The position numbers and the translations under genes were made by a program. From Novosphingobium sp. 17-62-19 (GTDB lineage: Bacteria; Pseudomonadota; Alphaproteobacteria; Sphingomonadales; Sphingomonadaceae), in the NCBI RefSeq assembly GCF_002256775.1, contig NZ_NCII01000008.1, forward strand, positions 1 through 50,795: a stretch of 50,795 bases of DNA, in the 5' to 3' direction. The notes beneath the pieces are model-generated. The model was given only the letters and a program-made list of their open reading frames with translations, did not search any database and had not been told where the DNA came from. Of this stretch, positions 363 through 44,841 are shown one piece after another. Numbering within the stretch: the stretch's first letter is position 1; each line of letters begins with the position of its first letter.

Positions 363-2600
363 ATGGGTGCGCGCCTTGCGGGCGTGCTTGCCGCGACGGC
401 GCTTTTCGCGTCGGGCGCGGTGCGCGCGGACGATGGTGCTGAGACGGCCGCGGCTGTGTCGCCAGCAGTCACCACTGGCTCGGCGCAAAAGCCCGTGGTG
501 CCGAACCGACTGGTCCTGCCGCGCAGCGCCTATCCTGAAACGCGCGATGATGGGCTGGTCGAACAAGTGTTTGGTCATCGCGTTGCCGATCCCTATCGCT
601 GGCTTGAGGCCGACCCGCGCAGCGAGCCCAAAGTTGCAGGCTGGATGGCGCAGCAGAATGCGCTTTCGGCGGACTATCTGGCCAAGCTGCCACAGCGCGA
701 CAAGTTTGCGGCGCGTATCCGCAGCCTGTTCGACTACGAACGCTATGGCCTGCCGCGCAAGGCCGGGAGCCGGTATTTCTACACGCGCAACAGCGGCTTG
801 CAGAACCAGTCGGCGCTGTGGGTGCGCAGTGGCGTGGCGGGCAAGCAGCGGTTGCTGCTCGATCCCAATACGTGGAGCGTAGACAGCACGCTGGCGCTGG
901 CGCAGTGGGAGCCTTCGCCGAGCGGCAAGTACGTGGCCTTTGCCGAACAGGAAGCAGGGAGCGACTGGCGGACTTTGCGCGTGGTCGAGGTTGGCACGGG
1001 CAAAGTGTTGGGTGAGCCGGTGCGCTGGGCCAATGATACGGAGATCGCGTGGATTGGCGACGAGGGCTTCCTCTATTCGCGCTTTCCTGAGCCGAAAGCC
1101 GGGCAAGACCCGCGTGCGCCGCGCTACGACAAGGCGGTGTGGTTCCATCGCGTGGGCAGCGGGCAGGCTAGCGATGAACTGGTCCACGCCACGCCCGACC
1201 ATCCTGAATGGAGTCACAAGGCGCAAGTGACCGCTGACGGGCGCTGGGCGGTGATCGTCAGCGAAGTCAGCACCGACCGGCGCAATGCGGTTCATCTGAT
1301 CCAGTTGGACGCGCGCCGCGATGGTGCGTGGAAGGCCGAGGCGCTGGTGCCCGAGATTGCCGACCACTGGAAGCTTGTCGCGGGCATGGGCAACAAGCTG
1401 TGGTTCCTCACCGACCGGGGGGCGGCGAATTTCCATCTGGTGAGCATCGATCTGGCCCGCCCCAAGTTGGGCTGGAAAGTGGTGGTGCCCGAACGCGGCA
1501 ACACGCTGGAAGGCGCGCGGATGATCGGTGACCGGTTCCTGCTGTCTTACCTGAAGGACGGGCAAAGCGTGGCGGTGATGACCGACCGCAAGGGGCAGCC
1601 GGGCACAGCGATCACGCTGAACGGCATTGGCACCGCCAGCGGCTTTGGCGGACGGCCCGGCGATGCCGAGACGTTTTACCAGTTCACCAGTTTCAATATG
1701 CCGCCTGCGATCTATCGCATGGATCTGCGCAGCGGTGCGGTTACGCCATTTGCGGTGCCGAAGATGAGCTTCGATCCGGCAGACTACAGCGTGGAGCAGC
1801 GCGAATTTGCGTCGAAGGACGGGACTAAGGTGCCGCTCTATGTGGTGCGCAAGCGCAGTCTGGCGCAGGCGGGCAAGCCGCTGCCGACACTACTCTATGG
1901 CTATGGCGGGTTCGATATCTCGCTGACACCGGGCTATTCGCCGGTGCGGATGGCGTGGCTGGAAGCGGGCGGGGCGTTTGCGCTGGCCAACATTCGCGGT
2001 GGAGGCGAGTTCGGCAAGGCGTGGCACGAGGCCGGGCGGCGGGACAAGAAGCAGAACAGCTTTGACGATTTCATCGCAGCGGGGGAATACCTTATTTCTC
2101 AAGGCATTGCTGCCAAGGGTGGGCTGGCGGTGCAGGGATCGTCTAACGGCGGGTTGCTGGTGGGCGCGGTGGTCAACCAGCGGCCCGATCTGTTTGCAGC
2201 GGCCAATCCTGATGTGGGTGTGATGGATATGCTGCGGTTCGACCGGTTCACGTCAGGCCGATTCTGGGTGGATGATTATGGCCGCCCTGACCGCGAGGAA
2301 GACTGGCGGACACTGCGCAGTTATTCGCCCTATCACAACATCGCAGGCGGCACGGATTATCCGGCGATCCTTGTGACCACGGGTGAGAACGATGACCGTG
2401 TGGTGCCTGCGCACAGCTTCAAATATGTGGCGGCGCTGCAGACTGCGCTGATCGGGGAGAAGCCGCATCTGCTGCGGGTGGAGCCGCGCGCGGGGCACGG
2501 CGCGGGTAAGCCGGTGGACAAGGTGATCGATAGCGGGGCTGATGTGCTGGCGTTTCTGGCCTATTGGACAGGGTTGCCCGACGGCGCAGAGTGCGACTGA
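363..2600 (+). CDS. Prolyl oligopeptidase, family S9A, exported
   Basis: A complete 745-residue prolyl oligopeptidase, a serine peptidase that hydrolyses short peptides on the carboxyl side of proline. The ATG at 363 is chosen because AGGA lies just upstream and the protein then opens with a clean signal peptide (MGARLAGVLAATALFASG, cleavage near VRA-DD); an in-frame TTG at 312 would bury it. The N-terminal beta-propeller is followed by the alpha/beta hydrolase domain with GSSNGG (nucleophile Ser594), DDRVVP (Asp near 677) and RAGHGAG (His712), so the triad is intact. It follows a truncated-in-view paralogue and is probably periplasmic. The length is normal for exported S9A enzymes. Confidence 0.95.
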   Translation: MGARLAGVLAATALFASGAVRADDGAETAAAVSPAVTTGSAQKPVVPNRLVLPRSAYPETRDDGLVEQVFGHRVADPYRWLEADPRSEPKVAGWMAQQNALSADYLAKLPQRDKFAARIRSLFDYERYGLPRKAGSRYFYTRNSGLQNQSALWVRSGVAGKQRLLLDPNTWSVDSTLALAQWEPSPSGKYVAFAEQEAGSDWRTLRVVEVGTGKVLGEPVRWANDTEIAWIGDEGFLYSRFPEPKAGQDPRAPRYDKAVWFHRVGSGQASDELVHATPDHPEWSHKAQVTADGRWAVIVSEVSTDRRNAVHLIQLDARRDGAWKAEALVPEIADHWKLVAGMGNKLWFLTDRGAANFHLVSIDLARPKLGWKVVVPERGNTLEGARMIGDRFLLSYLKDGQSVAVMTDRKGQPGTAITLNGIGTASGFGGRPGDAETFYQFTSFNMPPAIYRMDLRSGAVTPFAVPKMSFDPADYSVEQREFASKDGTKVPLYVVRKRSLAQAGKPLPTLLYGYGGFDISLTPGYSPVRMAWLEAGGAFALANIRGGGEFGKAWHEAGRRDKKQNSFDDFIAAGEYLISQGIAAKGGLAVQGSSNGGLLVGAVVNQRPDLFAAANPDVGVMDMLRFDRFTSGRFWVDDYGRPDREEDWRTLRSYSPYHNIAGGTDYPAILVTTGENDDRVVPAHSFKYVAALQTALIGEKPHLLRVEPRAGHGAGKPVDKVIDSGADVLAFLAYWTGLPDGAECD

Positions 2601-18697: not shown

Positions 18698-19837
18698 ATG
18701 CCGATCAATTCAACGATCAGGATTATGGGCAGTGTGGGTGCGGGCGGGCGTAACACCGCGTCGGACGTCAAGACTGTTCAGCAGCGCCTCAATGATTTGA
18801 TGCGGCCTCCGCGGGTGAAGCTTGCAGTTGACGGAGTTGTCGGCCCGAAGACCAAAGGGATGATCGGCGATTTTCAGAAGGTTGTGGTTGGCCTGCGTTC
18901 ACCTGATTCGCGCGTTGACCCCAATGGCCGCACGCTGGCGGCGCTGAATACGGCCCAGTCTGAAAACATCTGGGCCGGGCAAAGCGTTGCGCCACCGCCA
19001 GCAGCAGGTACTCTGCCAGGTATGCCGGGCGCGGGGAACGGGACGGGCAAGGTCACCGGGCTTTCTCCGGTTGAACAGCAGCGGCTGGACACCTTGCGCG
19101 CGCAATTGAAGACACGGACCGACAGCGCTCCTGCGATCGATTTTCTGGCCTATATCGCCAGCAACGAAATTCAGACGCTGAAAATGATCCTGAATGCGCA
19201 AGGTGCCGCGCAGTATGCCGTAGAGGCGTTGATGGGGATCAAGAACGCCTTGAAGGTGGGGTTCACCTCGCGCGATATTGTCACTATCCTGACCAGCCGG
19301 GCCATCAGGCTTGATACGGCGCTGGAAATGATGCGGTCATGGGGCAGCGCCACCAAGGTGGTCAGCGTATTGAAATCCCTCGGCTCCATCGCTCTGGTGG
19401 TGCAGGTTCTGGCGACCGGCGCAGTGGTGATCGATCATTTCCGTGCAGGCCGTTTTGGTCCCGGCTTTTCCGAGATCTATGCCACAGCCATCGGCGCGGC
19501 AGTGCCATGGGGCGGGTTCCTGAACGCGATGCAGGAAATGCTCTATGCGGCAAATCCTGCTGCAGCGAGCGATCCGCGCTTTGGCACGGCATTCCGCTAT
19601 CTGCTGGCGATTGACCCCATCGGCGCGGGCAAGACGGCTGTAGATACCGTGGCCACATTTACCGAGCTGGCGATGAAATCGCTGTTTGGTGGCAACATTC
19701 GCGGCAACGAAGTGGATGAGCTGATCGAGCGGATGCGTGCCAGCCCGATGAAGTTCTGGGTGGAGATCGGCGAAAGCTCGGGCAACTGGATGGGCGACCG
19801 TTTTGGCGACTGGTGGTATCGCAACGTTCTATCGTGA
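18698..19837 (+). CDS. Peptidoglycan-binding-domain protein with hydrophobic helical C-terminal half
   Basis: A 379-residue protein without signal peptide. Residues about 20-75 resemble a peptidoglycan-binding (PG_binding_1-like) repeat: DVKTVQQRLNDLMR, LAVDGVVGPKTKGMIGDFQ. A Pro/Gly/Ala linker (about 90-118) leads to a mainly helical region with several hydrophobic stretches (SIALVVQVLATGAVVI near 230, IYATAIGAAVPWGGFL near 265) and an ending rich in Trp (WMGDRFGDWWYRNV). Such a layout fits a cell-wall-directed or membrane-active protein delivered by another system, but no secretion genes are adjacent. GGGGAA precedes the start. Function unknown. Confidence 0.8.
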   Translation: MPINSTIRIMGSVGAGGRNTASDVKTVQQRLNDLMRPPRVKLAVDGVVGPKTKGMIGDFQKVVVGLRSPDSRVDPNGRTLAALNTAQSENIWAGQSVAPPPAAGTLPGMPGAGNGTGKVTGLSPVEQQRLDTLRAQLKTRTDSAPAIDFLAYIASNEIQTLKMILNAQGAAQYAVEALMGIKNALKVGFTSRDIVTILTSRAIRLDTALEMMRSWGSATKVVSVLKSLGSIALVVQVLATGAVVIDHFRAGRFGPGFSEIYATAIGAAVPWGGFLNAMQEMLYAANPAAASDPRFGTAFRYLLAIDPIGAGKTAVDTVATFTELAMKSLFGGNIRGNEVDELIERMRASPMKFWVEIGESSGNWMGDRFGDWWYRNVLS

Positions 19838-30802: not shown

Positions 30803-31726
30803 ATGACCGAACTTGGGCAGGCTGGATCAATCGCTGAATTGGCAGAAGAAAATGCGCGCTGCGCACCTGCGCTGATCCGCTACCTTGGTCCTGACGAATA
30901 CGTAACGCGCCGCTATGTTTCGCAAGGTGCAGAGATGAACACCGGCGACTATTTCGATTACGAATGCCAGGTGCGCGATGGAATGCCGATGCGCGATCAT
31001 TTCTCGCTCGATACCCATGGCTTCATACTGGGCCACCACCGTTCGGCCATTGCCGACTTTCATGACAAGTCTGCGGTCAATGCGGCCTATCTGCAAGAAG
31101 TCGAGGCGCTGGTCACGCGCTTGTGCGGTGCCACGCGCACCGCCGCGCAAGGGTGGATGATCCGCACTTCGGCTGACCTTTCCGAGCGCGCAAAACAGAA
31201 GGTCGAAGGCTACCAGCACTCTGGCGGTATTCAGCCGCCCGCCGGAGAGGCCCACGTTGACTACAACGAGATCACAGGCCGACGCGCTGCCGAACGGATA
31301 TACAAGGACCGGTTTCCCGACGGTCCCGGCTACAGCCGCTATATCTGCTTTTCGTTGTGGCGCACCTTTTCACCCGGCCCACAGGACTGGCCGCTGGCGG
31401 TGTGCGATGGACGTACTGTGAGCGATGAGGAAACTGCCTCCAACACGCTGTTCGTGGTCGATGAGTTTCCGGTCGGTGATGCCCTGACTGCGCCGGTCGA
31501 AGGCGAAGACGAGATGATCGCTGCAACCATTTTCCGCCAGCGTGACCGGCACCGCTGGTGGTATTTTTCCAATATGACTGCGCAAGACGTGCTGCTTTTC
31601 AAGTTTCAGGACAGCGATCATTCTGTTGCGTGGCGCTGCCCGCACACGGCATTTCATGACACCAGTCTGCCTGACACGAAAACCCGCGAAAGCATCGAAG
31701 TGCGCTGCATCGCGTACTTCGAATAG
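30803..31726 (+). CDS. CmcJ/NvfI family oxidoreductase
   Basis: A 307-residue member of the CmcJ/NvfI family, distant relatives of non-haem iron oxygenases. Family features: TRDxx-like N-terminal strand region (EMNTGDYFDYECQVRDG), FHDKSAVNAAYLQEVEALVT, the HVDYNEITGRRAAERI segment with candidate metal-binding His/Asp, the WPLAVCDGRTVSDEE stretch, and the terminal CPHTAFHDTSLPDTKTRESI with another conserved His. GGAGAGG precedes the ATG at 30803. The substrate is unknown; characterised relatives modify fungal or beta-lactam natural products. It is followed by a flavin reductase gene. An operator-like site overlaps its promoter. Confidence 0.85.
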   Translation: MTELGQAGSIAELAEENARCAPALIRYLGPDEYVTRRYVSQGAEMNTGDYFDYECQVRDGMPMRDHFSLDTHGFILGHHRSAIADFHDKSAVNAAYLQEVEALVTRLCGATRTAAQGWMIRTSADLSERAKQKVEGYQHSGGIQPPAGEAHVDYNEITGRRAAERIYKDRFPDGPGYSRYICFSLWRTFSPGPQDWPLAVCDGRTVSDEETASNTLFVVDEFPVGDALTAPVEGEDEMIAATIFRQRDRHRWWYFSNMTAQDVLLFKFQDSDHSVAWRCPHTAFHDTSLPDTKTRESIEVRCIAYFE

Positions 31727-31784
31727 CCTTTCAACCCCTCGGGGACGGTTGACGCGCGCCGATTTTGCCGACAGTCAGGCGCGC

Positions 31785-32273
31785 ATGATCGATCCACGTC
31801 ATTTCCGCAACGTGTTGGGCACATGGCCGACCGGCGTCTGTGTCATTACCTCGGTAGATCCCGATGGGACTCGCCACGGTTTGGTCGTCGGCTCTTTCAC
31901 GTCGATTTCTCTGGATCCTCCCCTGGTTGGCTTCTTCCCGGATAAAAGGTCGAGCACCTGGCCAAAGATCGCTGCCGGTGGCCGCTTCTGCGTGAATGTG
32001 TTGGCCGCCCAGCAACTCGATTTGTGCAAGCGCTTTGCAGCGCGTGCGGAAGACAAGTTTGCCGAACTCGCGCATGGTCATACGCCGTCGGGCCAGCCGC
32101 TGCTTGAAGATGCTATCGCCTGGATCGATTGCACGGTTGAGCGGGTTGAGGATATTGGCGATCATCTGCTCGTCGTCGGTGCAGTAGAAGCGCTTGACCG
32201 GAACGAGCATGGCACCCCGTTGCTGTTTTTTCGGGGCCAGTACCACGATGTGACGAATTTGCCTGAAGTTTGA
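31785..32273 (+). CDS. Flavin reductase family protein
   Basis: A 162-residue split-barrel flavin-binding protein: FRNVLGTWPTGVCVITSVDP, GLVVGSFTSISLDPPLVGFF and FCVNVLAAQQLDLCKRFAA are the family hallmarks. Such proteins reduce FMN or FAD with NAD(P)H for a partner monooxygenase, or act as flavin-binding enzymes themselves. AGG lies before the ATG at 31785; the upstream in-frame extension overlaps the previous gene and is not homologous. It lies 58 bp after the CmcJ-like gene on the same strand and may be co-transcribed. No two-component monooxygenase is next to it. Confidence 0.92.
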   Translation: MIDPRHFRNVLGTWPTGVCVITSVDPDGTRHGLVVGSFTSISLDPPLVGFFPDKRSSTWPKIAAGGRFCVNVLAAQQLDLCKRFAARAEDKFAELAHGHTPSGQPLLEDAIAWIDCTVERVEDIGDHLLVVGAVEALDRNEHGTPLLFFRGQYHDVTNLPEV

Positions 32274-32307
32274 AAAAGCACTGACCCTGCAAAATAGTCA
32301 CGCCGTT

Positions 32308-32321
32308 TTGATATCGGTCAA
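32308..32321 (+). promoter_or_regulatory. FNR box
   Basis: TTGAT-ATCG-GTCAA matches the FNR/FixK consensus TTGAT-N4-ATCAA with one mismatch. Centred at 32314.5, a class II arrangement would place the start of transcription near 32356, with TAGGAA (32344-32349) as a weak -10. Confidence 0.75.
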
Positions 32322-32355
32322 CGCGATGCTGCAATGCAGCGCCTAGGAATGATTT

Positions 32356-32449
32356 CGACGAAGCGGCCCGGTGCCTGAACAGCACCATCCCCGCTCCGGC
32401 GATTTCTCCCCAACTTGGGCGGCCCGATTTTCGCGCCGCCCAATTTTTT
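32356..32449 (+). ncRNA. Candidate FNR-dependent small RNA (about 94 nt)
   Basis: No ORF lies here. A transcript started 41.5 nt after the FNR box centre would contain a small hairpin (GGTGC 32370-32374 with GCACC 32382-32386, 7-nt loop), a C/U-rich single-stranded part (CATCCCCGCTCC, TTTCTCCCC) able to pair with Shine-Dalgarno sequences, and a strong terminator with TTTTTT. This is the usual layout of a trans-acting sRNA. Alternatives: the 3' end of the flavin reductase mRNA, or an attenuated leader of the fnr gene 62 nt further on. The start site is inferred, not seen. Confidence 0.5.
32415..32449 (+). terminator. Strong rho-independent terminator upstream of fnr
   Basis: TTGGGCGGC (32415-32423) pairs with GCCGCCCAA (32435-32443); the loop can add CG-ATTTT-CG. 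TTTTTT follows at 32444-32449. Confidence 0.9.
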
Positions 32450-32510
32450 GCCGACAAAGCTGGTGGTTTCGCCGATTGCCGGTGAAGTGCAGGGGTGATA
32501 ACGCATTTGC

Positions 32511-33206
32511 ATGACCTCCTGCGAAACCTGTGTCGTCCGTAATCGGGCAATTTGTGCCGGCCTTGATGATCGCGAAATCGCCACGCTCAACGCGATCGGG
32601 CGTCGGCGCACTGTCACGGCAGGGGAATCGTTGATCTGGGAAGATGATGATTCGCTGCTCGTCGCCAACGTGATCGACGGCGTGCTGAAACTTACCACCA
32701 GCACCGAGGATGGTCGCGAGCAGATCGTGGGGGTTGCCTATCCGTCGGATTTCATCGGCCGTCCCTTCGGACAGACCAGCAGTGCCAGCGTGGTGGCACT
32801 CACCGATGCACGGGTCTGCGTGTTCTCTCGCAACGATTTTGACCGGTTTGCCCGCGAGCACCCTGAACTTGAGCACAAGTTGCTTGAGCGCACGCTAGCC
32901 GAGCTTGACCGTACCCGGTCCTGGATGATGTTGCTCGGGCGCAAGAACGCTTCGGAAAAGATCGCAACTTTCCTGCTCGAAATGTCTGACCGTTTGGCAG
33001 AATCCGGCTGTACCCCAGCCTTCGGCCCGGCCAAGCGCTTCTCGCTTCCCTTTTCGCGCCAGCAGGTTGCCGATGTTCTTGGCCTCACGATCGAGACTGT
33101 GAGCCGTCAGTTCACCAAGCTGAAAAACGAAGGGGTGGTAGAACTGCCTTCGCGCCGCGAAGTGGAAATCCTTGATCGTGGCGCGCTAAAGGCGCTGGCA
33201 GGCTGA
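32511..33206 (+). CDS. fnrL: FNR-type oxygen-sensing regulator (Crp/Fnr family)
   Basis: A 231-residue Crp/Fnr regulator. N-terminal Cys4, Cys7 and Cys15 (C-x2-C-x7-C) and Cys103 match the ligand set of the oxygen-labile [4Fe-4S] cluster of FnrL/FnrN proteins. A cyclic-nucleotide-like beta-roll and dimer helix are followed by the helix-turn-helix SRQQVADVLGLTIETVSRQF, whose recognition helix has the E-x2-S-R residues that read TTGAT half-sites. It therefore should act on the two boxes at 32308 and 35433. It stands 2.3 kb before the cbb3 oxidase genes, as in other alphaproteobacteria. Confidence 0.94.
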   Translation: MTSCETCVVRNRAICAGLDDREIATLNAIGRRRTVTAGESLIWEDDDSLLVANVIDGVLKLTTSTEDGREQIVGVAYPSDFIGRPFGQTSSASVVALTDARVCVFSRNDFDRFAREHPELEHKLLERTLAELDRTRSWMMLLGRKNASEKIATFLLEMSDRLAESGCTPAFGPAKRFSLPFSRQQVADVLGLTIETVSRQFTKLKNEGVVELPSRREVEILDRGALKALAG

Positions 33207-33366
33207 GGCCTTTCTGATCCCGGCCTTGTGGCCATCGATGAAAAGCATCAAAAAATAGCCGTATTTCCGATGTTTGCAGTAAGACACACTTTCTAACGGA
33301 AACTCCTGTTTCCTCACGCATTGCCGCTTCCGTGTTCGCATCTGCGAGAATGGAGGGCAGAAATCA

Positions 33367-33573
33367 ATGCAACCCGATCCTTGGAACTCTGATACCGAAC
33401 GTTTTGGCAGGCTTCGTGCCAGTTTTTGGATATTGGTCTTCGGCATCGCAGTAATGGGCTATCTTATGGCTATCGGTCACCCTGACTGGTTCGTTCTGCG
33501 TCCGGTATCTTCCGCGTCTGCAGCCATGTCGCAAGCTGCTGATCAACCTGCCGTTGAACGCAGGGACAACTGA
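33367..33573 (+). CDS. Small single-pass membrane protein coupled to bestrophin gene
   Basis: A 68-residue protein with a charged N-terminus, one transmembrane helix (FWILVFGIAVMGYLMAIG) and a Ser/Ala-rich, probably periplasmic tail. GGAGGG lies upstream of the ATG at 33367. Its stop overlaps the bestrophin-like start codon (ATGA-type overlap at 33571-33575), so the two are translated together. No family is recognised; an accessory role with the channel is possible but only suggested by the coupling. Confidence 0.7.
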   Translation: MQPDPWNSDTERFGRLRASFWILVFGIAVMGYLMAIGHPDWFVLRPVSSASAAMSQAADQPAVERRDN

Positions 33574-35432: not shown

Positions 35433-35446
35433 TTGATCCGGGTCAA
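35433..35446 (+). promoter_or_regulatory. FNR box upstream of ccoN
   Basis: TTGAT-CCGG-GTCAA matches the FNR consensus with one mismatch, 60 nt before the ccoN ATG. It has the same half-sites as the box at 32308. It lies between the divergent ompW and ccoN genes. Confidence 0.85.
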
Positions 35447-35506: not shown

Positions 35507-37156
35507 ATGGTTACGGCACTATCGCGCTCAAGCCTCTGGCTTGTGTCGCTCCTAATCGCCGTCGTCGCCTGCGCCGCAGCCGTCGACACGGGTTTCGCAA
35601 TCCACATGTTCATCGTGGCACTGGCCTGCATCATCGGGCTGATCGTCACCTTGCGCGGTGTGGACCTGTCGAAAGCCATACTCGCACCTGATCAGGGCCG
35701 TTATGACGATGATCCGATCCGCTGGGGCGTGATCACGACCGTTTTCTGGGGCATGGCCGGGTTCCTGGCAGGTCTGTTCATCGCCTTGCAGCTTGCGCTG
35801 CCGGTGCTGAATCTGGGCTTTGAATGGACCGCATTCGGCCGGGTGCGCCCATTGCACACCTCTGCGGTCATCTTCGCTTTCGGAGGCAACGCGCTGATCG
35901 CCACGTCGTTTTACGTCGTGCAGCGCACTTGCCGGGCGAGGCTGGCCTTCCCCGGCCTCGCCCGTTTCGTGTTCTGGGGCTACCAGCTGTTCATCGTGCT
36001 GGCGGCAACCGGCTATCTGCTCGGTATCACGCAGGGCAAGGAATATGCCGAACCGGAATGGTATGTCGACCTGTGGTTGACGATCGTATGGGTCGCTTAT
36101 CTCGCGGTCTTCGTCGGCACCATCGTCAAGCGCACTGAACCGCACATCTATGTGGCGAACTGGTTCTACCTTTCGTTCATCATTACTGTGGCGATGCTCC
36201 ACATCGTCAACAACCTGAACTGGCCGGTCAGCTTTGTCGGCAGCCGCAGCTATCCCATCTTTGCAGGCGTTCAAGGTGCACTGGTGCAGTGGTGGTATGG
36301 CCATAACGCCGTCGGCTTCTTCCTGACCGCTGGCTTCCTGGCGATGATGTACTACTTCGTGCCCAAGCAGGCAGAGCGTCCGATCTTCTCCTATCGCCTG
36401 TCGATCATCCACTTCTGGGCGTTGATCTTCCTCTACATCTGGGCGGGTCCGCACCACCTTCACTACACCGCGCTGCCCGATTGGGCGCAGACGCTGGGCA
36501 TGGTCTTCTCTGTCATGCTGTGGATGCCCAGCTGGGGCGGCATGATCAACGGTCTGATGACGCTCAACGGCGCATGGGACAAGGTTCGCACCGATCCGAT
36601 CATCCGCATGATGGTGATGGCGCTGGCCTTCTACGGCATGAGCACGTTCGAAGGCCCGATGATGTCGATCAAGTCGGTCAACAGCCTGTCGCACTATACC
36701 GACTGGACCATTGGCCACGTGCACTCCGGCGCACTGGGCTGGAACGGGATGATCACCTTCGCGTCGATCTACTACCTCGTGCCGCGCCTGTGGAACCAAC
36801 CGCGCCTCTACAGCCTGCGCATGGTCAACTGGCACTTCTGGCTCGCAACCGTGGGCATCGTTTTCTACGCCGCCTCGATGTGGGTTGCGGGGATCACGCA
36901 GGGCCTGATGTGGCGCGAATATGGCGCCGACGGGTATCTGGTTAACAGCTTCGTCGAAACCGTCGCCGCGCTGAAGCCGATGTTCTTCCTGCGCGCCTTC
37001 GGTGGGCTGCTCTACCTGGCCGGTGCCGTGGTGATGACCGTCAACGTATGGCGCACCATTCTTGGCCACCAGCGCGCGGAAGCTCCGATGAGCGACGCGC
37101 CCTACGATCCCGAAAAGGACCGCCCCGTCGTCGCTGCCGCCCCGGCCGCAGCCTGA
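35507..37156 (+). CDS. ccoN: cbb3-type cytochrome c oxidase subunit I
   Basis: A 549-residue catalytic subunit of the high-affinity cbb3 oxidase, an inner-membrane proton pump that reduces oxygen at low tension. About 12-14 transmembrane helices; haem and copper ligands are seen in [15 protein letters not shown] (low-spin haem), [15 protein letters not shown] and [12 protein letters not shown] (CuB His) and [15 protein letters not shown] (haem b3 and b His pair). GGAAGGAAGG precedes the ATG. First gene of ccoNOQP-GHIS-hemN, under a FNR box. The Ala/Pro-rich C-terminal tail is cytoplasmic. Confidence 0.98.
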
Positions 37157-43242: not shown

Positions 43243-43502
43243 GCCATCGCGCGCTCCGCTTCCTCGCGCCCCTCGCCGTGCTGCAAATGGCCGCGCCCGG
43301 CCCTGCCAACGCGGCCTACATCATGGTGGCATCTTGCGGCGGAAGTGGCGGGATGGTGCCGGTGCGCGTGCCGGGAAAGGACGATGGCAGCAAAAACCTG
43401 CCCTGCTGCAAGGTTTGTCATATCTCAATGCGCAAGCGCTTCGCCGCCGATAGCTGTTGCGGAAACAGCGATGAAGGCGAGGACGATTCCGATGGCGGCT
43501 GA
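43239..43502 (+). CDS. Small exported Cys-rich protein with a CxxCH motif, in the cbb3 operon
   Basis: An 87-residue protein with a signal peptide (MSHRALRFLAPLAVLQMAAP, cleavage near ANA-AY). The mature part holds six Cys: Cys33, the cluster CCKVCH (Cys56, 57, 60, His61) and CC (73, 74), plus an acidic tail EDDSDGG. CKVCH equals the CxxCH haem c attachment motif, and the Cys-rich composition also fits copper or zinc binding. It overlaps ccoS by 4 bp and hemN by 11 bp, so it is translated as part of the oxidase assembly unit. I recognise no named family. Role in metal or haem delivery is inference. Confidence 0.82.
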   Translation: MSHRALRFLAPLAVLQMAAPGPANAAYIMVASCGGSGGMVPVRVPGKDDGSKNLPCCKVCHISMRKRFAADSCCGNSDEGEDDSDGG

Positions 43503-44841
43503 CGTGATGACCGGACCCGAAGTCCTCGGCAAATGGACCTATTGGCCCGAATTGCTGGAGCGCCCGGTGCCGCGCTACACCAGCTATCCCACCGCCGCCG
43601 AATTTGTCGAAGAGAGCTTCGAGGAACGACAGGCAGAAGCGTTGCGCAAGGTGCGCGGTACAGTCTCGCTTTATCTGCATATCCCCTATTGCCGGGAAAT
43701 CTGCTGGTATTGCGGCTGCAACACCGGTGCTGCCAACAAGACCCAACGCCTCGCCGCATACCTCGAAGCGCTGCATCACGAGATCGCTCTGGTTTCGCGC
43801 CACTTGCACCCTTCGGTAAAAGTCTCGCGCATCGCATTTGGCGGAGGCAGCCCGAACGCGATCAAGCCGACCGATTTCGTGCGGCTGGTCGATAGCCTGA
43901 CGCTCAACTTCCGCCTGCAAGACCCGGTTCTGTCAATCGAACTCGATCCTCGCACACTGGCGGCTGACTGGCTCATGGCTATCCGCGGCATTGGCGTGAT
44001 CAAGGCCAGCCTCGGCGTGCAAACGCTTGATCCGCGTGTGCAGGCCGCCATCGGTCGTATCCAACCGCGCGAGATGATCGAACGGGCCACCGAAGGCCTG
44101 CGCAAGGCTGGCGTCAATTCGATCAACTTCGATCTCATGTATGGCCTGCCGTTTCAGACCGACGAGATTCTTGCTGAAACGCTGGATCAGACGGTTGCCA
44201 TGGGTGCAGACCGAGTGGCGTTGTTCGGCTATGCCCACGTCCCCCATATGATCCCGCGCCAACAGCGGATCGATGCCAGCGAATTGCCCGATCAGCGCGT
44301 CCGTTTCCGCATGGCCGCCGAAGGTTATGTGCGGTTGACCGAGGCAGGGTACCAGCCGGTCGGATTCGATCACTTTGCGCTTCCGGGCGATGATCTGGCA
44401 GTCGCTGCAAGTGCAGGGACGCTAAGGCGCAACTTTCAGGGCTTTACCGAAGATCAGTCTCCCGTACTCATCGGCCTTGGTGCGTCCTCGATCAGCGAGT
44501 TTCCCGACCTTTATGTGCAGACCGAGAAGAACGCTGGCCGTTACCGCATGTTGATCGGCGCCGATCAGCTTGCCGGTCGCAAGGGCGTTGTGCGCAGTGC
44601 CGAGGATCGCCACCGGGGCGAGGTCATCACTGATCTGCTGTGCCGGGGCAGGGCAGCGGTCCCGGCAGACCTCATCGCGACCAACCGTGATCGGCTTGAA
44701 CCCTTCATTGCGCGTGGTCTTGCGCGGTTGGACGGCACCATGCTCACGCTGGAACACGGCACCGAAGCCTATGCTCGCTCCATCGCCGCCGTGTTCGATG
44801 CCTATCGGTCAGGTGCCCGCCAGTTCAGTTCAGCAGTGTGA
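43492..44841 (+). CDS. hemN: Oxygen-independent coproporphyrinogen III oxidase
   Basis: A 449-residue radical SAM enzyme that converts coproporphyrinogen III to protoporphyrinogen IX without oxygen. The cluster motif CREICWYCGC has Cys67, Cys71 and Cys74 as ligands, plus the HemN-typical Cys76. Further family marks: VSRIAFGGGSPNAI, GVQTLDPRVQAAIGR, NFDLMYGLPFQT and GYAHVPHMIPRQQRI. ATG 43492 is chosen because GAGGA lies 7 nt upstream; ATG 43507 is the alternative. It supplies haem for the cbb3 oxidase when oxygen is scarce and is the last gene of the operon. Confidence 0.96.
   Translation: MAADVMTGPEVLGKWTYWPELLERPVPRYTSYPTAAEFVEESFEERQAEALRKVRGTVSLYLHIPYCREICWYCGCNTGAANKTQRLAAYLEALHHEIALVSRHLHPSVKVSRIAFGGGSPNAIKPTDFVRLVDSLTLNFRLQDPVLSIELDPRTLAADWLMAIRGIGVIKASLGVQTLDPRVQAAIGRIQPREMIERATEGLRKAGVNSINFDLMYGLPFQTDEILAETLDQTVAMGADRVALFGYAHVPHMIPRQQRIDASELPDQRVRFRMAAEGYVRLTEAGYQPVGFDHFALPGDDLAVAASAGTLRRNFQGFTEDQSPVLIGLGASSISEFPDLYVQTEKNAGRYRMLIGADQLAGRKGVVRSAEDRHRGEVITDLLCRGRAAVPADLIATNRDRLEPFIARGLARLDGTMLTLEHGTEAYARSIAAVFDAYRSGARQFSSAV

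Follow-up and report, generated by a model that had tools for sequence, protein, structure and literature searches.

A candidate FNR-controlled small RNA gene upstream of fnr in Novosphingobium and its relatives in other sphingomonads

The small RNA (sRNA) FnrS of Escherichia coli and Salmonella is activated by FNR under anoxic conditions and represses functions that are then dispensable (PMC8139620). In Rhodobacter sphaeroides, the low-oxygen sRNA PcrZ depends on PrrA and FnrL (PMC8139620). The promoter regions of two further sRNAs of this species, RSs0019 and RSs2461, are bound by FnrL; both are uncharacterised in that report (PMC4263372).

A different group of sRNAs, the alphaR8 family, includes SuhB of Sphingopyxis, MmgR of Sinorhizobium, and SisA-D of Caulobacter. 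These RNAs share with the one predicted here a weak 5′ hairpin, a single-stranded anti-Shine-Dalgarno core, and a Rho-independent terminator (PMC12559287). The Caulobacter alphaR8 sRNAs, which have a similar core, repress mRNAs with Hfq, and SisA has been found on Hfq together with the mRNAs it represses (PMC12559287). SuhB represses thnR with Hfq in Sphingopyxis (PMC6563040).

The DNA considered here, referred to as the window, is a stretch of 50,795 nucleotides from Novosphingobium sp. 17-62-19. A first-pass annotation had proposed that a near-consensus FNR box upstream of fnr lies at class II distance from a weak −10 element, and that the ∼94 nt behind it lack an ORF and hold a hairpin, C/U-rich single-stranded segments, and a strong terminator with six T residues. 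The essentials of this proposal hold, although the likeness to alphaR8/SuhB RNAs and the existence of a wider family had been missed. We consider it likely that nucleotides 32356-32449 form a separate FNR-activated sRNA gene whose product would block translation of its targets through an anti-Shine-Dalgarno core, probably with Hfq. The parts of the putative gene are as follows.

32308-32321, forward strand: FNR box TTGATATCGGTCAA, an exact match
32344-32349, forward strand: predicted −10 element TAGGAA of a class II promoter, with the A at 32345 as position −11
32356-32449, forward strand: predicted sRNA of ∼94 nt (fold, covariance model R1, and 42-sequence alignment A1)
32356-32402, forward strand: 5′ stem-loop, stem I (pairing and two-sided changes)
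32401-32414, forward strand: anti-Shine-Dalgarno core GAUUUCUCCCCAAC, predicted to be single-stranded (unpaired in the predicted fold except for its first bases)
32415-32449, forward strand: intrinsic terminator, with its stem at 32415-32443 and T6 at 32444-32449

The box matches TTGAYNNNNRTCAA without a mismatch in all 42 loci that have the layout described below, the selection of loci having tolerated one mismatch in the box. The Fnr box derived from the transcriptome of Sphingopyxis granuli TFA, TTGAc/t-N4-g/aTCAA, represents the same consensus, and most of the Fnr promoters listed for that strain have the box centered at or near −41.5 (PMC7713065). Because the box center is set at −41.5, the predicted transcription start falls at 32356 and the predicted −10 element at 32344-32349. 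At offset 37 from the start of the box, all 42 loci have an A, with no indels in any of them, and nearly all of the intervening bases are variable. With the box so centered, offset 37 is position −11, which is the place of the key −10 adenine. The class II spacing between FNR box and −10 element that marks FNR-controlled sRNAs, and that had been claimed for the window, is present at every locus with the layout. A consensus scan of 31500-33500, which omits the sRNA terminator because its loop limit is 8, detected promoter- and terminator-like sites no more commonly than in shuffled sequences. Elsewhere in the window, a perfect palindrome (TTGATN4ATCAA) is located at 19229-19242 and has no A at offset 37.

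The 94 nt are predicted to fold with −39.5 kcal/mol (z −3.6), and only 1 of 200 shuffled sequences folds equally well. When stem I is read without gaps from the predicted start, 238 of 294 cells are paired, compared with a maximum of 213 in 1000 partner shuffles, and in a MAFFT alignment two-sided changes occupy 73 cells versus 34.5 (sd 5.9) after shuffling (0 of 500 as high); kinship among the loci weakens both of these shuffle tests. Two-sided changes are found in seven of the eight pairs, and every slid version of the MAFFT alignment pairs less. Even so, few other explanations would account for pairs that alternate among GC, CG, AU, and GU. The terminator is strong: the segment 32410-32452 has a z of −4.1, and 94.4% of the cells of the helix are paired in A1.

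The core UUCUCCCC is invariant in 42 of 42 loci, which were chosen partly by this core. The proposal of C/U-rich single-stranded segments holds for GAUUUCUCCCCAAC, which is predicted to be exposed, but not for CCCCGCTCC, which is mostly paired as the 3′ arm of the 5′ hairpin. There is no closed ORF inside 32356-32449, where two start codons open frames that run past its end, and loop lengths vary freely among the loci; the possibility of a coding stretch was rejected on these grounds.

The genes that surround the candidate sRNA are listed here.

31785-32273, forward strand: flavin reductase gene (Pfam Flavin_Reduct, 153.9 bits)
32476-32504, forward strand: predicted fnr promoter, TTGCCG, 17 bases, and the extended −10 element TGATAACGC (TTG-N17-TGNTA)
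32511-33206, forward strand: fnr, CRP/FNR family, FnrL-like (Pfam HTH_Crp_2 and cNMP_binding)
35433-35446, forward strand: second FNR box, before ccoN (box scan)
35507-37156, forward strand: ccoN (TIGR00780, 758.5 bits)
43534-44841, forward strand: hemN, which closes the fnr-cco-hemN cluster on the side away from fnr (61% to the HemN-like protein encoded at locus L090 by tblastn; ORF 43345-44841)

The best NCBIfam match of fnr is FnrL, at 233 bits and under the equivalog cut-off of 300. Beyond fnr lie genes for a bestrophin and an OmpW protein, followed by ccoN, further cco-type genes (recognized by eye), and hemN. Between the terminator and the ATG of fnr, the motif TTG-N17-TGNTA occurs in 42 of 42 loci, with its TA 11-14 nt before the ATG. 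Base shuffles of these regions yield the motif, which was picked after the sequences had been viewed, in an average of 0.065 of 42 loci and in two at most. It appears, then, that fnr is transcribed from a promoter of its own that would start the mRNA at the ATG or beside it, and that this mRNA is leaderless or nearly so. An mRNA of this kind would make fnr an unlikely target of the sRNA via a Shine-Dalgarno site. The first-pass annotation had also proposed a short untranslated RNA that ends before fnr. Judged by sequence only, an untranslated RNA with its own terminator and with transcription apart from fnr is indeed what the locus appears to encode, given the terminator, the lack of a closed ORF, and the separate fnr promoter.

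When named genomes were scanned with the Fnr protein, 54 loci were found, which makes 55 together with the window. Box, core, and terminator are found upstream of fnr in 42 of the 55; the closest named locus (L021) encodes an Fnr protein identical to that of the window. Laboratory strains with the predicted sRNA include N. subterraneum DSM 12447 (L026) and N. capsulatum NBRC 12533 (L036). The layout is absent within 420 nt before fnr in the other 13 loci. Two of these loci (L049 and L059) encode Fnr proteins that are 84% and 81% identical, and for the other 11 (L063-L069 and L071-L074), which include representatives of Aurantiacibacter, Sphingobium, and Pacificimonas as well as N. mathurense, the identity is 58%-75%. 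Because only the 420 nt before fnr were examined, these 13 genomes may carry a copy elsewhere. Conservation of the box-to-terminator layout in relatives, on which the original proposal had been made to depend, is therefore seen at 42 of 55 fnr loci, and the layout recurs beside hemN.

Copies at other sites were sought with the covariance model R1, which covers the RNA and excludes the box. In its own genome, R1 matches one place with 82.3 bits, which is its source sequence, and the next place scores 21 bits. At an E value of 0.001, 21 of 397 genomes of the family match, the own genome included. The core is present in 11 of the other 20 family loci, and 10 of these 11 have an exact FNR box no more than 120 nt upstream, versus none of the nine core-less loci (p 0.0001). 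Within the genus, at least 117 of 195 genomes match, 56 of them with a score of no less than 45 bits; a single match was found in 114 of the 117. These counts are a lower bound because the filters are strict. Forty of the 64 weaker genus matches were read in rough rank order, with those already seen omitted and some being near-identical. The core is present in 38 of the 40 and an exact FNR box in 33 of these 38; there is no exact box within 120 nt in the remaining five core-bearing matches (L322, L326, L337, L351, and L354). Among the 33 matches with core and box, the −11 A is found in 29 and missing in four, 30 lie within ∼2 kb of hemN, and none is near an fnr relative.

Searches with sequence patterns extend this picture. 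The pattern box-N60..90-TTCTCCCC occurs in 30 of 396 genomes of the order, and the reversed pattern in none. By reading, these matches comprise 14 fnr-side loci, nine other sRNA loci, and seven that appear chance-like; the −11 A is present in 22 of the 23 sRNA loci. With a box-to-core spacing of 91-121 bases, eight of 394 family genomes match (reversed pattern, one), of which five are sRNA loci, four in genus g83 and one in genus g63, and three are not. The putative sRNA gene is also present in two further genera of the Sphingomonadaceae. We conclude from these counts that genomes of the genus commonly carry a single FNR-boxed sRNA locus, at the fnr end or the hemN end of the fnr-cco-hemN cluster. 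At the g63 locus L087, a different Fnr gene (36% identical) adjoins the sRNA tail to tail, and an antisense rplU-like reading and a small lipoprotein are close by (by eye); similar neighbors occur in g83. A class-wide pattern search of 385 genomes gave 10 matches besides the own genome and two with the reversed pattern. Nine of the 10 appear chance-like by reading, and a spread beyond sphingomonads was rejected; the tenth, L317, looks genuine. At L317 (∼1453-1529, reverse strand), in the distant class member G882, an alphaR8 RNA of 40.0 bits lies behind an exact FNR-type box, an arrangement that may represent an older, or an independent, instance of FNR control in the alphaR8 family.

Other explanations for the stretch upstream of fnr can be weighed against a separate sRNA gene. 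Its position directly upstream of fnr, with a terminator at its end, would suit an fnr leader, with fnr under the control of the box and attenuated by the terminator, an alternative that had been raised in the first-pass annotation. This is very improbable: copies near hemN and elsewhere do not adjoin this fnr, and the conserved fnr promoter lies behind the terminator in 42 of 42 loci. Because fnr seems to have its own promoter there, the sRNA is better regarded as a separate gene, and the leader was rejected on this basis. The same annotation had considered the 3′ end of a flavin reductase transcript, processed or terminated at this site. The flavin reductase gene does stop 34 nt before the box and is located upstream in 40 of the 41 relatives with the layout, and read-through from upstream could add to the RNA. 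However, the remaining relative (L058) has the layout without a flavin reductase gene, the hemN-side and other copies have different neighbors, and the box and the −11 A, which lie between the flavin reductase gene and the sRNA, are both conserved. The occurrence of the sRNA downstream of other genes weakens this explanation to the point of being scarcely credible, and it was rejected. A sponge or protein-binding RNA that does not regulate mRNAs is improbable, if less so. Such a function would fit the sponge RNA CrfA, which binds the Caulobacter alphaR8 core (PMC12559287), and the weakness of the mRNA target leads described below. Against it, what is conserved is simply an anti-Shine-Dalgarno sequence, and sequences of this type pair with mRNAs in alphaR8 sRNAs.

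A further possibility is compatible with a separate FNR-activated sRNA gene and concerns descent: the RNA, which looks to be built like an alphaR8 RNA, could be a true diverged paralogue of alphaR8/SuhB/MmgR that came under FNR control. We regard this as somewhat short of an even chance. A cmscan search gave a match to RF00519 (suhB/mmgR) over the full model, with 28.7 bits and an E value of 0.001 for the whole genome. The parts are in the same order, and the core stretch UUUCUCCCCAACUU is near-identical to CCUCUCCCAAACUUU, which is present exactly or closely in the five RF00519 members above the cut-off in the same genome (L002-L006). However, 28.7 bits is below the curated cut-off of 41, so the sRNA was not filed as a member of RF00519, and among 11 more sphingomonad loci compared with Rfam only L052 gave a match to this family (27.6 bits). 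Two other places in the genome score 26.6-27.5 bits and are little alike beyond the terminator, and every one of the 14 control genomes has weak family matches (E up to 10); because of these, the RF00519 score alone cannot settle descent. The position and exposure of the core fit the alphaR8 family, whereas its sequence is UUUCUCCCC and not the alphaR8 core UUUCCUCCCU. The FNR box is likewise a difference, as none is present within one mismatch in the 300 nt upstream of the five canonical copies. At least four of these five share the upstream sequence TTCGCACTTGC at a similar distance (by eye), which could be a promoter element that they have in common and that does not resemble the FNR box.

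For the separate sRNA gene, the following mechanism is proposed. At low oxygen, FNR that is made next door from its own promoter would bind the box at 32308-32321 and activate the class II promoter, and transcription would end at the terminator before fnr. We infer a transcript of this kind that depends on FNR and that, using Hfq, represses mRNA targets. The predicted RNA consists of the 5′ hairpin, the exposed core, and the hairpin of the terminator. Most likely, this core base-pairs with Shine-Dalgarno regions of the GGGGAGAA type, probably with Hfq, and would thereby block translation of genes that are not needed at low oxygen. Through such a block, FNR would acquire a repressing arm of the kind that FnrS provides in enterobacteria. 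Hfq is encoded in the same genome; its gene (L359, G000:C118:2331-2759, reverse strand) is a single open frame of 197 aa in which two Hfq domains score 109.1 and 79.8 bits.

Candidate targets were sought in nine genomes; five of these together gave 82 distinct sites, of which 80 were read. In the own genome, GGGGAGAA-N0..14-ATG occurs at 13 sites, and the reversed pattern at one. Seven of the 13 sites precede ORFs of more than 100 aa. The products are two VanA-type Rieske oxygenases (in one case, motif and ATG are only 1 nt apart), a MAPEG protein, a small periplasmic protein with no Pfam match, an ATPase that resembles HslU (by eye), and two more proteins. The motif precedes the ATG of the MAPEG orthologue in six of 12 genomes with an sRNA match of at least 45 bits versus one of 18 others (p 0.009), a count made on the 30 best-scoring of 47 matching genomes among 59, with kinship as a confounder and no control motif. 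Genes with such sites, including the MAPEG gene, are leads only.

Sphingomonads are studied for their oxygen-dependent breakdown of aromatic pollutants and lignin. A conserved RNA under FNR control would add to their low-oxygen response a repressing arm that is open to direct test. It is a tentative reading, and one that we hold to be possible rather than likely, that an equivalent of FnrS exists in Novosphingobium and some other Sphingomonadaceae. This would be an anti-Shine-Dalgarno sRNA that is switched by oxygen and has an alphaR8-like core, with its gene at one or the other end of the fnr-cco-hemN cluster. At low oxygen, it would shut down oxygen-dependent catabolism (VanA-type Rieske oxygenases and others) and other membrane functions.

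FNR-linked sRNAs are not new to the class, since FnrL binds two sRNA promoter regions in R. sphaeroides. PcrZ differs from the present RNA in that its control by FnrL may be indirect and in that it represses photosynthesis genes (PMC8139620). Searches of open-access literature, with subscription papers mostly outside their scope, yielded no report of this sRNA, and in a word search of the main text of the S. granuli TFA transcriptome paper, small or non-coding RNA appears only in references to SuhB (PMC7713065). As far as the literature searched shows, an FNR-linked sRNA family with this core kept across the genus is new. A cmscan of the sRNA region, at E values up to 5 and 10, gave no match to the FnrS family, and the lineage, core, and locus of this sRNA differ from those of FnrS. 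The FnrS-like logic that had been suggested for the locus describes its most likely function: a low-oxygen blocker of ribosome binding sites that, like FnrS, would be activated by FNR and repress dispensable functions. Such an RNA would represent a second circuit of the FnrS type, built separately from the first.
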